64,000 bases of DNA from Phytoactinopolyspora halophila (lineage in GTDB: Bacteria; Actinomycetota; Actinomycetes; Jiangellales; Jiangellaceae), in assembly GCF_003287285.1 (NCBI RefSeq), contig NZ_QMIG01000002.1, forward strand, positions 186,001 to 250,000, given 5' to 3'. Shown piece by piece: positions 10,390-15,868 of the stretch. Below the pieces are notes generated by a model. The model saw nothing but the letters and a program-made list of their open reading frames with translations, was not told the DNA's origin and ran no database searches. The translations under genes were made by a program, and so were the position numbers. Numbering within the stretch: position 1 is the stretch's first letter; each line of letters opens with the position of its first letter.

Positions 10390-11187
10390 TCAGGCTCCGT
10401 CGCTCCGTTCGGTCTCGGCGGGCATGAACGCCAGGGCGAGGTTCTCCGGCCGCAGCACCGTCTGCGGCGTGGAATGCAGCAAGACACGCTTGTGTAAGAG
10501 CACAGCTTCGTCGGCGATCTCCGGCAACACGTCGAAATCGTGAGTGGCGATGAGCACGGCGCAGCCAGCCGCGGCGCGGCTGCGCAACAGCTGGCAGATC
10601 GTCTCCACGGAACGCGCGTCCACGCCGGAGAAGGGCTCGTCGAGCAGCAACAACCTGGCGTCTTGCGCGATCGCGCGAGCGACGAATACGCGCTTGCGCT
10701 GCCCACCGGACAGCTCACCGATCTGGCGGGATGCGAGCCCGGTCAGATCTACCTGTTCGAGGGCGTCGTCGACAGCGGCACGGTCGACACCACGCGATCG
10801 CCGCAGCATGGACATCGTGCCGTAACGGCCCATCATCACGACGTCACGCACCCGCAAGGGAAACGACCAGTCGACGTTCTCTGCCTGCGGCACGTACGCG
10901 ACCTCGCCGCGTCGTCGTCCGTGAGCGGGATCGCTCCCGAAGAGCCGCACCGTACCGGCCTGTGGACGGATCAACCCCATCATGGTCTTGAACAGCGTGG
11001 ACTTCCCCGAGCCGTTCATGCCGATCAGGCCACACACGCGGCTCGATCCCACCGTGAGCGACACGTCGTGCAGCGCGAGCACATCGTCGTAGCGAACCGT
11101 GACGCCAGCGATATCAACGACGGGTCCATGATCGGCGACGTCCCCGGTGGCGGGGTCGCTGGCGTTCCCGATCGTCGTCCCGGTCAT
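10390..11187 (-). CDS. mntB: Metal (manganese-type) ABC transporter ATP-binding protein
   Basis: Protein of 265 residues with Walker A GMNGSGKST (near 60), Q-loop YVPQAENVDWSFPL, signature LSGGQRKRVFVARAIA and Walker B LLLLDEPFSGVD, then the H-loop ATHDF. The VDWSFP stretch after the Q-loop is characteristic of Mn/Zn/Fe chelate-type importers. The ATG overlaps the stop of the binding-protein gene (ATGA). An N-terminal extension of about 25 residues precedes the usual ATPase start; an internal start near VVDIAGVTVRY cannot be excluded. Confidence 0.9.
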   Translation of the reverse strand: MTGTTIGNASDPATGDVADHGPVVDIAGVTVRYDDVLALHDVSLTVGSSRVCGLIGMNGSGKSTLFKTMMGLIRPQAGTVRLFGSDPAHGRRRGEVAYVPQAENVDWSFPLRVRDVVMMGRYGTMSMLRRSRGVDRAAVDDALEQVDLTGLASRQIGELSGGQRKRVFVARAIAQDARLLLLDEPFSGVDARSVETICQLLRSRAAAGCAVLIATHDFDVLPEIADEAVLLHKRVLLHSTPQTVLRPENLALAFMPAETERSDGA

Positions 11188-12125
11188 CGCTGTTCGCCTG
11201 CCACCTGCGCGTCGACCAGCCCTTCGATGATCGTCTCCGCGTCGTGCCGGATCAAATCGATGTACGTGGGAACCGGGCCACCGGCCTCGGACAGGGAGTC
11301 GACGTACAGCAGACCACCGAACTCGGCGCCCGACTCCCGGGCGACCTGCCGCTGCAGCCGATCGCTCACGGTTGACTCACAGAACACCGCCGGGACCCGC
11401 TTCTCACGGACGATCGTGATCGTTTCCGTGACCTGCCGCGGGGTGCCCGCTTCGTCACTGTTGACCGGCCAGAGATACCGCTCCTGCAGTCCCGCATCAC
11501 GCGCCAGATACGAGAACGCCCCCTCACACGTCACGAGAACTCGTTGCTGCTCGGGCAGCTCCGCGACGGCCTCGACCAGCTCCTCGTGCACCTCACGGAG
11601 CTCGTCCGCGAAAGCGTCGGCGTTGCTCTCGAAAAGCTCGGCGTTGTCCGGATCGAGTTCGGCAAAGGCCTCCGCGATGTTCTCGGCATAGATGGCGACG
11701 TTGAGCGGCGACATCCACGCGTGCGGATTGGCCTCGCCCTCATACGTGCCGGACTCGATCGGGATGGTGTCGACGCCCTTGCTGACGACGACGCGTGGTG
11801 CGTCCACCTGTGCCATGAAATCCTCGAACCACAGTTCCAGGCCGAGGCCGTTCTCGAGCACCAGGTCTGCGCCGTCGACACGGCGAGTGTCGCTGGGTGT
11901 GGGCTCGTATCCGTGGACCTCGGCACCGGGCTTGACGATGGACTCGACGTTTATGGCGTCCCCTCCGACATTCCGGGCGATGTCGGCCAGAACCGTGAAC
12001 GACGTCATCACCGTGGGCCGTTCGTCGTCGGAAGCGGAATCGGAGCCGAGTGCGAGCGCGCCGTCGCCGCACGCTGCGACGGCGATGGCGACGAGCCCCA
12101 GCAGTACGAGCCGTATTCGCGACAT
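11184..12125 (-). CDS. mntA: Metal ABC transporter substrate-binding lipoprotein (Mn/Fe type)
   Basis: Lipoprotein of about 313 residues of the cluster A-I (ZnuA/PsaA) family. Start ATG 12125 gives a short lipoprotein signal with lipobox IAVAAC, the Cys at residue 19. Candidate metal ligands: His of VHGYEPTP, His of NPHAWMSP, Glu of VTCEGAFSYLARDAG and an acidic residue near the C-terminus. Glu at the third position is the Mn/Fe arrangement (PsaA/MntC), whereas zinc proteins carry His there. This fits the Mn-type ligands in the regulator at 5.2 kb. First gene of the operon; an 18-bp dyad lies about 95 bp upstream. Confidence 0.88.
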   Translation of the reverse strand: MSRIRLVLLGLVAIAVAACGDGALALGSDSASDDERPTVMTSFTVLADIARNVGGDAINVESIVKPGAEVHGYEPTPSDTRRVDGADLVLENGLGLELWFEDFMAQVDAPRVVVSKGVDTIPIESGTYEGEANPHAWMSPLNVAIYAENIAEAFAELDPDNAELFESNADAFADELREVHEELVEAVAELPEQQRVLVTCEGAFSYLARDAGLQERYLWPVNSDEAGTPRQVTETITIVREKRVPAVFCESTVSDRLQRQVARESGAEFGGLLYVDSLSEAGGPVPTYIDLIRHDAETIIEGLVDAQVAGEQR

Positions 12126-12220
12126 CAGAATCCGGACGGCGACACCTGGCGTGCGGCGGCCTCGTATTCCGAGATGATTGGCACGCGGCGATGAGCTATT
12201 TACGCGTAGCCGAATCAAAT

Positions 12221-12238
12221 AGTTCGGCCAACCGAACT
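12221..12238. promoter_or_regulatory. Candidate MntR/DtxR-type operator upstream of mntA
   Basis: AGTTCGGCCAACCGAACT: two perfect 7-bp arms around CCAA, located in the promoter region of the manganese importer operon. Its length and interrupted symmetry fit a DtxR-family dimer pair. The assignment to MntR is inference. Confidence 0.5.
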
Positions 12239-12331
12239 TCGCCGGAGACACGTACGCCCTTCCTCATCGCCCGAGATGCCTGATCTGGAACCAGGTTACC
12301 GCGCCCATGAGAACACACGGTGAGCGGCTGA

Positions 12332-12568: not shown

Positions 12569-13960
12569 TCAGCTGATCGCCAACTCGCGCTCCTGCGCCG
12601 CCGGCGCATCGAGAACGACACCCGCACCCACCGAGTGCGTGATGTGCATCGAGTGCAACGCCCGGTCAAACGCCTGCAGGGCTTCGTCAGTCCGCCCCAG
12701 ATCCCGGTAGAGATCACCGAGTTCGCGCCACGCCGCGGCCGCGCGCCGGGAAGCTCCCATCGCCTCCAGCATGGACGCGGCCAGCGCACCCTCGCGTGCG
12801 CTCTGATCGACGTCTCCCTCGGCGCGCAGGACACGGGCCAGCACCAACCGGGCCCGCGCGGACTCCATGCGTGGCTGATCACCGAGATCCCGCAGCGCCT
12901 CCACGGCGGCCTCGTGCGCCTCGTCGAGACGGCCCAAGGCCAGAAGAGCGTCGGCCCGGGTGCTCTCGTAATGCCGGACGTCGTCCACTCCGCCGTGCAT
13001 GGAGACCTCACCACGGACGGACTCGAGAAGGTCGAGCGCATCTGTCGGCCGTGGGTCCTCTCCCTGGAGGAGAAGCCACGCGTAGGCCATCCGCAGGCGA
13101 GCAAGGTTCCGGCGATCGTCACCCTCACCGAAGAGGGCCAGCGCACGATCGACGAGACTCAGTGCCTGCGCGAGATCACCACGAGACTCCGCGATCACCG
13201 AAGCGTTCCAGTATGCAGCGCCCCTCGTGTGTGGCGCGCCCATCTCGTCAGCGGCTCGGACCAGGTCAGAAGCCAACGTCCGCGACCGGACGATGTCGCC
13301 ACGGCCGTGGTAGGCACTCAGCACCGTGCAGCCGAGCCGGACGTACTCATCGGTCCGCTCCAAGCCGAGCTCGGCGGCATCCCGCATCGCCTTCTCCCCG
13401 ACCTGGATCGCCATGTCGAGATCGCCGGCGTTCTGGTAGCACCGCGACATCGCAAGAGCAATGTCGAGCCATGGCTGGACATCAGGCCGCTGCCGGGCTT
13501 CCTCCGCGAGTTCGTTGAGAAGCCCGATCGCACCTTCGATGTCGCCTTTGCGCTCCAATGCCTGCGCTTGGCCCAGACGCGCGCGACGAGCTTGTTCATC
13601 GTTGAGACCGGGGTCGCCAACCAATGTGGTGAACTCGTCATACGCGTCGGCCGCACGGCCGTCGTACAAGGCCTTCTCCGCACGGCCCAAGGCGAGGCGA
13701 GCCCGCGTACGCACTGAGGCGTCAACACCATCACGCAGGTACTCGACGTCAATGCGCAGCCGTTCCGCGATGTGCGCCAATGCCGCCGCTGCCGGCTGGC
13801 GCCGGCCGCTCTCCACAAGCGAGACATAGCTGGGAGACAGCATTCCCTCAGCGATATCTGCCTGTGAAAGGCCCAGCTCCAACCTGCGCGACCGGATACG
13901 CTGCCCGACGGGCGTCGGTTCCGGCGCCTCGTCAGCTGTTGCTAGTGGCTGCTCTGTCAT
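12569..13960 (-). CDS. XRE-family HTH regulator with C-terminal TPR array (RRNPP-like layout)
   Basis: Protein of 463 residues. Residues about 18-75 form an XRE helix-turn-helix (IRSRRLELGLSQADIAEG, SYVSLVESGRRQPAAAAL). From about 90 to 445 runs a chain of tetratricopeptide-like helices (RAEKALYDGRAADAYDEFTT, GDIEGAIGLLNELAEEA, GDLAQALSLVDRALALF, GRTDEALQAFDRALHS). The HTH-plus-TPR form is that of the peptide-sensing RRNPP regulators (Rgg, PlcR, NprR), though many actinobacterial members have no known ligand. ATG 13960 lacks a Shine-Dalgarno sequence and may be leaderless (TGCAAT 7 nt upstream). It is divergent, across 64 bp, from a 42-codon gene for an exported peptide. An upstream in-frame extension exists but would run through that peptide gene. 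Confidence 0.85.
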   Translation of the reverse strand: MTEQPLATADEAPEPTPVGQRIRSRRLELGLSQADIAEGMLSPSYVSLVESGRRQPAAAALAHIAERLRIDVEYLRDGVDASVRTRARLALGRAEKALYDGRAADAYDEFTTLVGDPGLNDEQARRARLGQAQALERKGDIEGAIGLLNELAEEARQRPDVQPWLDIALAMSRCYQNAGDLDMAIQVGEKAMRDAAELGLERTDEYVRLGCTVLSAYHGRGDIVRSRTLASDLVRAADEMGAPHTRGAAYWNASVIAESRGDLAQALSLVDRALALFGEGDDRRNLARLRMAYAWLLLQGEDPRPTDALDLLESVRGEVSMHGGVDDVRHYESTRADALLALGRLDEAHEAAVEALRDLGDQPRMESARARLVLARVLRAEGDVDQSAREGALAASMLEAMGASRRAAAAWRELGDLYRDLGRTDEALQAFDRALHSMHITHSVGAGVVLDAPAAQERELAIS

Positions 13961-14024
13961 GACACTATTGCACAACACGTAGTCATTTTTTGCTAGTCCT
14001 ACTGAGTTTCGGAGGTCGATCGCA

Positions 14025-14153
14025 GTGGCTCGTCTGAGGCGCGTTCTGGCTGTCACGTTCACCGCTATTGTTCTGTCGGCCGGTGCAGCTACGGTCGCCG
14101 CTCCGGCTTCTGCCGATGAAATCCAGCCACAGTGGCCAGGTATGTGCTGCTGA
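14025..14153 (+). CDS. Small exported peptide (42 residues), candidate signal for the divergent XRE-TPR regulator
   Basis: GTG start with an excellent ribosome site (GGAGG, 9-nt spacing). The product has a basic N-terminus (MARLRR), a hydrophobic core of about 18 residues (VLAVTFTAIVLSAGAATV), and a signal peptidase I site APASA, predicting a mature peptide DEIQPQWPGMCC of 12 residues with a C-terminal Cys-Cys. The reading frame ends in TGA and is followed 40 nt later by a long hairpin. The gene sits divergently next to the XRE-TPR regulator, the arrangement of peptide-regulator pairs. It is not conserved-domain recognisable; the signalling role is inference. Expression and secretion are unproven. 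Confidence 0.65.
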   Translation: MARLRRVLAVTFTAIVLSAGAATVAAPASADEIQPQWPGMCC

Positions 14154-14192
14154 CAGCATTTGCATGGCGCGAATCGACCGGGCGCAGTAGGC

Positions 14193-14264
14193 TGTGACAT
14201 GCGTGGACGATGTCCTGCGTCTCGCCCCCCGAACGCAGTGACGTCGTCCACGTCTTCGTGTCAC
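14193..14264 (+). terminator. Long imperfect hairpin downstream of the small peptide gene
   Basis: A 72-nt hairpin: outer GTGACA/TGTCAC, then GCGTGGACGA paired with TCGTCCACG, then GTC and TGCGT paired with ACGCA and GAC, loop about 12 nt (CTCGCCCCCCGA). It begins 40 nt after the peptide stop and ends about 70 nt before the convergent aminotransferase 3' end. No U-run follows, so it may be a terminator of the GC-rich type or a structured 3' end. Confidence 0.6.
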
Positions 14265-14337
14265 GCGATCTTTGTGTCATAGGTCATAGTTGCCCACAGT
14301 CACCACACGACGCGGCGTGTTGTTGTCGTGACATTCT

Positions 14338-15462
14338 TCACCCACGCCATTCTGCGGCAATCCGGATCAAAAGATCATTTGCCTCTGGCTCGGCAACGCT
14401 GATCCGGCATCCCTCACCGCCGAAGGGTCGGACGATAAGTCCGGCCTCACCACATTTTTCGGCGAAATGATCCGTTTCTTCGCCGAGTTCCAACCAGATG
14501 AAGTTCGCCTCGGTATGCGGGATTCGCCATCCCTGTGCCCGCAGGGCCTCCTGCACCCGAGATCGTTCCTTCACCAGGCTCTCCACCCGCTGCATGAGCT
14601 CCGCTTCCCGATTCAACGACTCCACCGCAGCGGCCTGGGCCACACCCGAGACACCAAAGGGAACGGCCGTCTTGCGCAACGCGTCCGCCACGTCGTCGTG
14701 CGCGAACGCGAACCCGACCCGGAGGCCGGCAAGCCCGTAAGCCTTCGAGAACGTCCGCAGCACACAGATGTTGGGGTAACGCCGGTACAGCGCGAGCCCG
14801 TCAACGGCGCGCGCATCGCGGACGAACTCCCGGTAGGCTTCGTCGACCACCACCAGGACGTCGTCCGGCACGTCCTTCAGGAACTCGACCATCTCGTCGT
14901 GGTGGACGGCGGGACCGGTCGGGTTGTTCGGGCTGCACACCAACACCAACCTGGTCCGCTCGGTGATCGCATCACGCATCGCTTCGAGGTCGTGACGCGC
15001 ATCCACAGTCAGCGGAACCCGCACCGAGCGTGCTCCCGAGATGCCCACAACGATCGGATATGCCTCGAACGAACGCCACGGGTAGATCACCTCGTCGCCC
15101 TCCGCCGCGCACGCCTGGATGACCTGCTGCAGCACGCCCACGCTGCCGGTACCCGTGGCGACATGTGCGGCGGGCACGTCGAACCGTCGAGCGATCGCAT
15201 CCACGAGCCCGGTCGCAAACATGTCGGGATACCTGTTCATCGACCTCGAGGCCTCCTCTACGACCTCGAGGACGCCAGGCAGCGGTGGGTACGGATTCTC
15301 GTTCGAGGAAACCTTGAAGACCGGACCGGCGTCGGCCGACGACGAACCGGCTGCGGAACGTCCGGGCTTGTAAGAAGGTAGGTTCGCCAGCGCCTCGCGC
15401 AGGCGAACACGGCTGGTGTGCGGGTGTGGATCGCGGTCGTCTCGATCATGCGATGGCGTCAT
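14338..15462 (-). CDS. hisC: Histidinol-phosphate / aromatic aminotransferase (class I/II)
   Basis: Protein of 374 residues, PLP-dependent fold type I. Visible: [17 protein letters not shown] at the N-terminus, the cofactor-phosphate region [28 protein letters not shown] (PLP ring Asp), and [19 protein letters not shown] with the Schiff-base lysine. It converts histidinol phosphate to imidazole acetol phosphate or transaminates phenylalanine/tyrosine (Pat); actinobacteria have both types and I cannot separate them here. The chosen ATG has no Shine-Dalgarno; a TATGGT motif 9 nt upstream suggests a nearly leaderless transcript sharing its promoter core with the divergent neighbour. Confidence 0.86.
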
Positions 15463-15490
15463 GTCGATGCACCATATACGCTCAGCCTTC

Positions 15491-15868
15491 GTGGTCTCTC
15501 TAATCGTACGAATCATCGTCAACGGACTGGCACTGTGGGTTGCGACCGAGCTGGTCAGCGGGGTCAACGTCACCGACACCGACACGGCGACCGGTCAAGT
15601 GATCACCCTGCTCGTGGTCGCGCTGATCTTCGCGATCGTCAACGCGATCATCAAGCCGATCGTCAAGTTGTTCACGTTCCCGCTGTTCATCCTGACGCTC
15701 GGGCTGTTCACGTTCATCGTCAACGCCTTGATGCTGTCCCTCACGGGATGGATCGCCGACGTGCTGAACGTGCCGTTCCAGGTCGACAGCTTCTTCTGGG
15801 ATGCCGTCCTGGGTGCGTTGGTCGTGTCGCTGGTCAGCTGGATTCTCAATCTTTTGCTGCCAAAATAG
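15491..15868 (+). CDS. Phage-holin-family / YvlD-type small membrane protein
   Basis: About 125 residues with four transmembrane helices and the family motif [36 protein letters not shown]. Function unknown; such proteins are common in actinobacteria and are not true phage holins. The GTG 15491 start matches the usual family N-terminus ([17 protein letters not shown]) and could be leaderless with TATACG 12 nt upstream. ATGs at 15461 and 15467 would overlap the divergent aminotransferase promoter and have no ribosome site, but remain possible. Confidence 0.75.

Follow-up and report, generated by a model that had tools for sequence, protein, structure and literature searches.

Across the Actinomycetota, a gene for a small exported peptide was found to be genetically tied to the gene of an HTH-TPR regulator. 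The two genes probably act together in peptide signalling, in the manner of the Firmicutes RRNPP systems, with an exported peptide and an intracellular receptor. The recurrence of this two-gene pair through much of the phylum makes it probable that actinobacteria possess a peptide signalling of their own, which appears to be undescribed. The pair was studied in the window, that is, the whole 64,000-nucleotide stretch of DNA analyzed here (G000:C25:186001-250000 in a 5.04-Mb genome). The named relatives Phytoactinopolyspora, Jiangella, and Haloactinopolyspora place this genome in the Jiangellaceae. The copy in the window belongs to a set that extends through the phylum, and in this set Cys-Cys (CC) is the commonest ending of the peptide, not a universal one.

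The regulator gene (12569-13960, minus strand, ATG at 13960) encodes an XRE-family HTH protein of 463 amino acids with a TPR superhelix, a putative peptide receptor. Pfam HTH_3 and HTH matches in the PDB place the HTH domain at residues 18-78 (13727-13909, minus strand). The TPR superhelix with its putative peptide-binding groove spans residues 81-440 (12641-13720, minus strand), as indicated by Pfam TPR families, the predicted structure, and similarity of fold to Rap, NprR, AimR, PlcR, and MalT domain III. The start codons of the regulator and peptide genes are 64 bp apart and divergent, and the intergenic region between them (13961-14024), a shared promoter region, is conserved in an alignment of 14 Jiangellaceae loci; these 64 bp yielded no sigma-70-like promoter consensus. 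On the plus strand, a GGAGG ribosome-binding site (14011-14015) lies 9 nt before the GTG start of the exported-peptide gene (42 codons, 14025-14153), which is conserved in relatives, as is a GGAG/GGGG-type site in front of it. The predicted precursor of 42 amino acids consists of a Sec-type signal peptide of 30 residues (VARLRRVLAVTFTAIVLSAGAATVAAPASA, 14025-14114, plus strand), which ends in APASA and is conserved in relatives, followed directly by the exported tail DEIQPQWPGMCC (14115-14150, plus strand), a putative pheromone with the core WPGMCC. The earlier note had described both the regulator and the divergent frame with its GGAGG site, Sec-type signal peptide, APASA, and tail; the ORF together with the Pfam HTH_3 and TPR matches confirmed the former, and the sequence itself the latter. 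On its downstream side, the regulator gene is neighboured by a gene of the ZnuA type (11184-12251), and an aminotransferase gene (14338-15585) lies beyond the peptide gene and is convergent with it.

The 42-codon frame proved, from its pattern of substitution, to be a real gene under purifying selection that encodes a signal peptide and a short variable tail. Specifically, dN/dS was 0.18 in Phytoactinopolyspora including the window and 0.35 in Jiangella, so that the question of coding selection raised in the earlier note was answered in favor of a gene. In the alignment of 14 Jiangellaceae loci, indels came in multiples of three, the Shine-Dalgarno sequence was kept, and the CC end was invariant. 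Within this family, non-synonymous change was 1.6-2.4 times faster in the tail than in the signal peptide, with CC fixed. Cleavage sites were read by eye as A-x-A-type positions, and signal-peptide-like ORFs were picked with a filter for hydrophobicity and charge.

A hairpin with an invariant CGTCTCGCCCCCCGAACG tip follows the peptide gene (14200-14254, plus strand). The predicted fold of positions 14190-14275 has an energy of -49.3 kcal/mol (z -7.2). The hairpin was present in 20/20 Jiangellaceae loci, always with the same tip, a six-C loop, and 9 of its 22 pairs covaried, with double-sided changes, at 98.5% of cells paired. The 17-mer GTCTCGCCCCCCGAACG occurred once per genome in 11 of the 13 Jiangellaceae genomes searched, always at the peptide locus, and in none of eight genomes of other families. 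No Rfam family matched the hairpin, and no similar hairpin was seen at the loci of other lineages. The hairpin may serve as a terminator for both directions or act as a C-loop regulatory RNA. Since two Cys codons adjoin the stop and a strong hairpin comes next, the frame might also be taken for a cis-acting, cysteine-responsive leader peptide or attenuator whose product has no role. We give this reading next to no credence and ruled it out. The next downstream gene is convergent, so nothing is attenuated on the peptide strand; selection acts on the protein and its export signal, and the Cys codons are missing in deeper lineages.

In the Jiangellaceae, the peptide gene was found at the same place in 19/19 relatives with enough flanking DNA, a count that leaves out one further relative (L022/L080), in which the regulator is present and the contig ends too close to it. 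The earlier note had named relatives lacking any small exported peptide at this position as a refuting outcome, and its idea withstood this check. Per genome of the family there is one copy of the regulator, in a single linked pair; the small genome G004 lacks the regulator. The regulator was additionally searched for in the class (394 genomes), in 84,980 named genomes (79 loci kept), in plasmids, and, by profile, in the phylum (396 genomes). Together, these searches gave 163 distinct regulators across the Actinomycetota. A regulator was counted as paired when a mini-ORF with a signal peptide and a tail containing CC or aromatic-Pro lay ≤800 nt upstream or ≤500 nt downstream. By these final criteria, 125 of the 163 were paired: 83 with a divergent CC peptide gene, 19 with a divergent aromatic-Pro one, 11 with a convergent CC gene 3' of the regulator, 9 with a same-strand upstream CC gene, and 3 in other arrangements. 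Convergent peptide genes were seen, for instance, at L032, L037, L038, L043, and L061, and same-strand upstream ones at L030 and L086. The position of the peptide gene thus shifts while the pairing is kept, which argues against simple inherited synteny. No motif-bearing peptide was found by the criteria used for 38 of the 163 regulators; some of these stand at contig ends, and in the rest the peptide may truly be missing.

CC tails were concentrated near the regulator when signal-peptide-like ORFs were compared (112/362 near vs. 9/486 far; Fisher p 1e-35). In a stricter set of such ORFs, 63/169 ended in CC within 600 nt of the regulator, as against 1/301 at more than 1200 nt. Because of these near/far counts and the dN/dS values, a chance ORF was rejected. 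The named hosts include Streptomyces, Kitasatospora, Streptacidiphilus, Nonomuraea, Microbispora, Acrocarpospora, Sphaerisporangium, Planotetraspora, Actinoallomurus, and Cellulomonas, and further hosts are MAGs assigned to Frankiales, Propionibacteriales, and Micrococcales. Two of the peptides are plasmid-borne (WP_331750220.1 and WP_123083198.1) and carry no annotation beyond "hypothetical protein". A homologue on a truncated, unannotated faecal phage contig (L151, MT836207), with 34.7% identity to part of the regulator, was set aside; a peptide was not found there.

The tails vary in a lineage-dependent manner. In the Micrococcales, CC is followed by a few residues (GAVGCCRWTR, MGLCCRVVQ), and in Streptosporangium and its relatives endings such as GWNHPG, GWVYPG, and SPWQWPI take the place of CC. 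The Cys pair, for which the earlier note had suggested a possible disulfide, lipid, or metal-linked form, is not universal: it is missing in these relatives and in several deeper lineages with aromatic-Pro endings. In other classes of the phylum, the whole peptide gene is reduced to 28-36 codons, and the tails after the cleavage-type site (PWPHCC, PWPPCC, PFPGCCG, NWPHH, NWPKH, GWPKH, KWPWG, SFPGP, GFPWPK, GYPWPK) mostly comprise 5-7 residues, compared with 12 in the window. The window's WPGMCC has its core in common with these tails, and known pheromones are similar in size to tails of 5-7 residues.

The earlier note had suggested looking for covariation between the tails and the TPR residues. 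A correlation of this kind was seen in the Jiangellaceae, where tail distance tracks TPR distance once HTH distance is removed (partial rho 0.78; reached by 0/300 permutations), and not in the distant lineages outside this family (rho about 0.1). We take the former value as weak support, because the HTH is almost invariant in the Jiangellaceae and the correlation is confounded by shared ancestry. A private, i.e., autocrine or within-cell, use of the peptide is conceivable, in which the same cell makes and senses it as a report on secretion, cell-wall, or growth state. The single linked pair with one regulator copy per Jiangellaceae genome would suit such a role, and the genomic data would fit it equally well. 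We nevertheless consider it quite unlikely; the tail varies more between species than the signal peptide does, which is, as a weak argument, more typical of selection for specificity.

Turning to the regulator, Pfam reported HTH_3 (E 3.6e-9) and several TPR families over their cut-offs, and both HTH_3 and TPR were found in 54/54 members scanned, i.e., the window protein and 53 homologues. An AlphaFold2 model built with 54 homologues reached a pLDDT of 89.8 and a pTM of 0.82. The A3 sequence profile matched PlcR at E 5e-15, the best match to a natural full regulator, and Foldseek with the regulator model placed the PlcR-PapR7-DNA complex at rank 2. Z scores in the VIA alignment were 30.7 for MalT domain III, 24.5 for Rap/Phr (RapF-PhrF), 24.0 for NprR, about 21 for AimR, and 20.6 for PlcR, the last over residues 15-293 with the HTH included. 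By fold, the RRNPP receptors match less well than MalT domain III and than certain TPR proteins of eukaryotes. TPR superhelices bind many partners and the fold is common to many proteins, so these matches support compatibility, not function. In Pfam and NCBIfam, no named family over cut-off was found for the regulator beyond generic HTH and TPR, and the RRNPP-specific profiles (RNPP C-terminal, RGG C-terminal) were absent from the matches of the window protein and its 53 homologues. The nearest actinobacterial profile is that of the NsdA-family TPR regulators of Streptomyces (NF053720), which covers part of the TPR region at E 1.2e-8; with 35 bits against a cut-off of 75, the protein is not a member by this model. 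To our knowledge, NsdA has no peptide partner.

RRNPP receptors combine an N-terminal HTH (except in Rap) with a C-terminal TPR superhelix, and their mature C-terminal peptides, of about 5-10 residues, are re-imported by an oligopeptide permease. The regulator described here has this HTH and TPR architecture, as judged from Pfam, the AlphaFold2 model, and the PlcR profile and fold matches, and a small gene for an exported propeptide adjoins it (19/19 in Jiangellaceae, 125/163 overall). The closest parallel is PlcR-PapR of the Bacillus cereus group (RRNPP/RRNPPA), likewise an XRE regulator with HTH and TPR next to a small exported-peptide gene; in this system, the last few residues at the C-terminus of the peptide are the signal. 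In contrast to PlcR-PapR, the present pair occurs in another phylum, its TPR domain is longer (about 360 residues), its putative ligands have CC or aromatic-Pro tails, the peptide gene is usually divergent or convergent, and the RRNPP-specific profiles are unmatched. In the streptococcal RRNPP systems Rgg-SHP and ComR-XIP, very short hydrophobic precursors are encoded beside an HTH-TPR regulator, often divergently. The deeper-lineage precursors of 28-34 amino acids with tails of 5-7 residues resemble these, but have clear A-x-A-type cleavage sites and other tail motifs, and the RGG C-terminal profile is unmatched. Similarly, NprR-NprX, Rap-Phr, and AimR-arbitrium share the TPR receptor fold (Z 20-24.5) and short exported peptides with our pair, whereas sequence identity is only 7-14%.

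The known RRNPP members come from Firmicutes and their phages (PMC10075063; PMC9765709). As the RRNPP-specific profiles are unmatched here and the surveys consulted searched Firmicutes and viruses only (PMC10075063; PMC9765709), we class the pair as RRNPP-like in operation, without calling it an established member. The earlier note's interpretation as a unit of RRNPP-like logic is partly supported: the pairing, the coding selection, and the export signals are shown, and the PlcR profile and fold matches agree with it, whereas actual export, signalling between cells, re-import, and binding are inferred.

By analogy with RRNPP systems, the precursor would pass through Sec, and signal peptidase, with or without further trimming, would free a tail of about 5-12 residues with the core WPGMCC. 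The freed peptide would build up outside the cell, re-enter via an oligopeptide permease, and bind within the TPR superhelix. Binding would alter the interaction of the HTH domain with DNA and thereby control at least the promoter of the peptide gene itself; further targets would depend on the lineage. The window genome encodes 17 SBP_bac_5 solute-binding proteins, a class that includes oligopeptide-permease receptors, which shows only that peptide import is possible. At four loci of other classes (L154-L157), inspection by eye showed a TTGACT box in front of the peptide gene, enclosed by an inverted repeat, TTAAC-N17-GTTAA. Control of the peptide promoter by the regulator would call for an operator there, and this repeat is a candidate for it.

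Clustering of 13-kb neighbourhoods revealed no third gene conserved with the pair across lineages, as expected for a self-contained unit of signal and receptor; a single conserved effector neighbour was accordingly dismissed. The short hydrophobic precursor, the XRE regulator, and the divergent arrangement would also suit a membrane-active toxin or a secreted antimicrobial repressed by the regulator, in the manner of a toxin-antitoxin or bacteriocin-like system. Such a function appears very unlikely in view of the large conserved TPR sensor domain, the small residues at -1/-3 before the tail, tails of down to 5 residues, and the lack of a conserved immunity, modification, or transport gene.

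Lineage-specific neighbours hint at possible targets of the regulator. In the Streptosporangiales, the regulator is followed immediately, without a change of strand, by CopC and CopD/CtaG genes (L114, 7358-9927; same position in others), which possibly form an operon with it. In Streptomyces and Kitasatospora (L082, L084, L087, L092, and L104), the peptide gene and a glycogen-synthase-like gene behind it share a strand and lie within a few tens of nt of each other, and at some of these loci glgB-like genes stand on the far side of the regulator. The Micrococcales pair is found in a ribosomal-protein/lepA context. The copper genes of the Streptosporangiales, the ZnuA-like gene next to the window regulator, the CC ending in most lineages, and the His-ended tails of some deeper ones (WPHH, WPKH) could together point to a metal or redox ligand: the exported Cys-Cys peptide would bind Cu(I)/Zn or report thiol state, and the regulator would read its loaded or oxidised form for metal homeostasis, not population density. 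We regard this as unlikely. The same regulator family pairs with tails without CC or His (SFPGP, GYPWPK, KWPWG, and the GWVYPG type of Streptosporangium relatives), which weakens metal sensing as a universal function, and metal genes are not conserved neighbours elsewhere, as the Micrococcales ribosomal-protein/lepA and Streptomyces glycogen contexts illustrate.

Among actinobacteria, the known density signals are chiefly gamma-butyrolactones and other small molecules. Quorum sensing in the group has been reviewed with a focus on gamma-butyrolactones (PMC4748050), and our literature search, whose coverage lay outside bioRxiv and most subscription papers, found no description of such a peptide/regulator pair. 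More tentatively, at somewhat below an even chance, we propose that the Actinomycetota have an ancient, so far undescribed peptide-pheromone system of their own, present in the class and beyond, with HTH-TPR receptors and mini-peptides of the core [WFY]-P-x-x-(Cys-Cys) released by signal peptidase, in which the vicinal Cys residues, possibly as a disulfide or with bound metal, contribute to the signal, and the Jiangellaceae signal mRNA ends in a conserved C-loop RNA. If the signalling reading is true, a pair distributed from Streptomyces and Nonomuraea to Jiangella, Cellulomonas, and further classes of the phylum would give the main antibiotic-producing group a genetically simple signalling route. 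Short synthetic peptides derived from the tails could be tried at once as inducers, and with the CC or aromatic-Pro ends a code between receptor and ligand becomes open to testing. What the pair may control is suggested by its operon-like settings beside copper genes in the Streptosporangiales and glycogen genes in Streptomyces.

Some loci deviate from the simple pair. Several Jiangella (L010, L012, L014, L015, L078, and L079) carry a second, convergent CC peptide gene 3' of the regulator, with a product ending in GEVAPWNDDGVRDTPDGGSDYCC, and L128 holds two similar peptides and two regulators. CC peptide genes were also observed about 2 kb from the regulator and not adjacent to it (L112, 6850-7005; L147, 6702-6866). 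Furthermore, small hydrophobic ORFs adjoin more distant regulators of the families f86 (L165, L168, L174, and L179) and f19 (L177, L181, and L182). Their tails, such as WSDGH and AAAAGPH, contain neither CC nor aromatic-Pro, and these pairs are possibly further branches of the same scheme.
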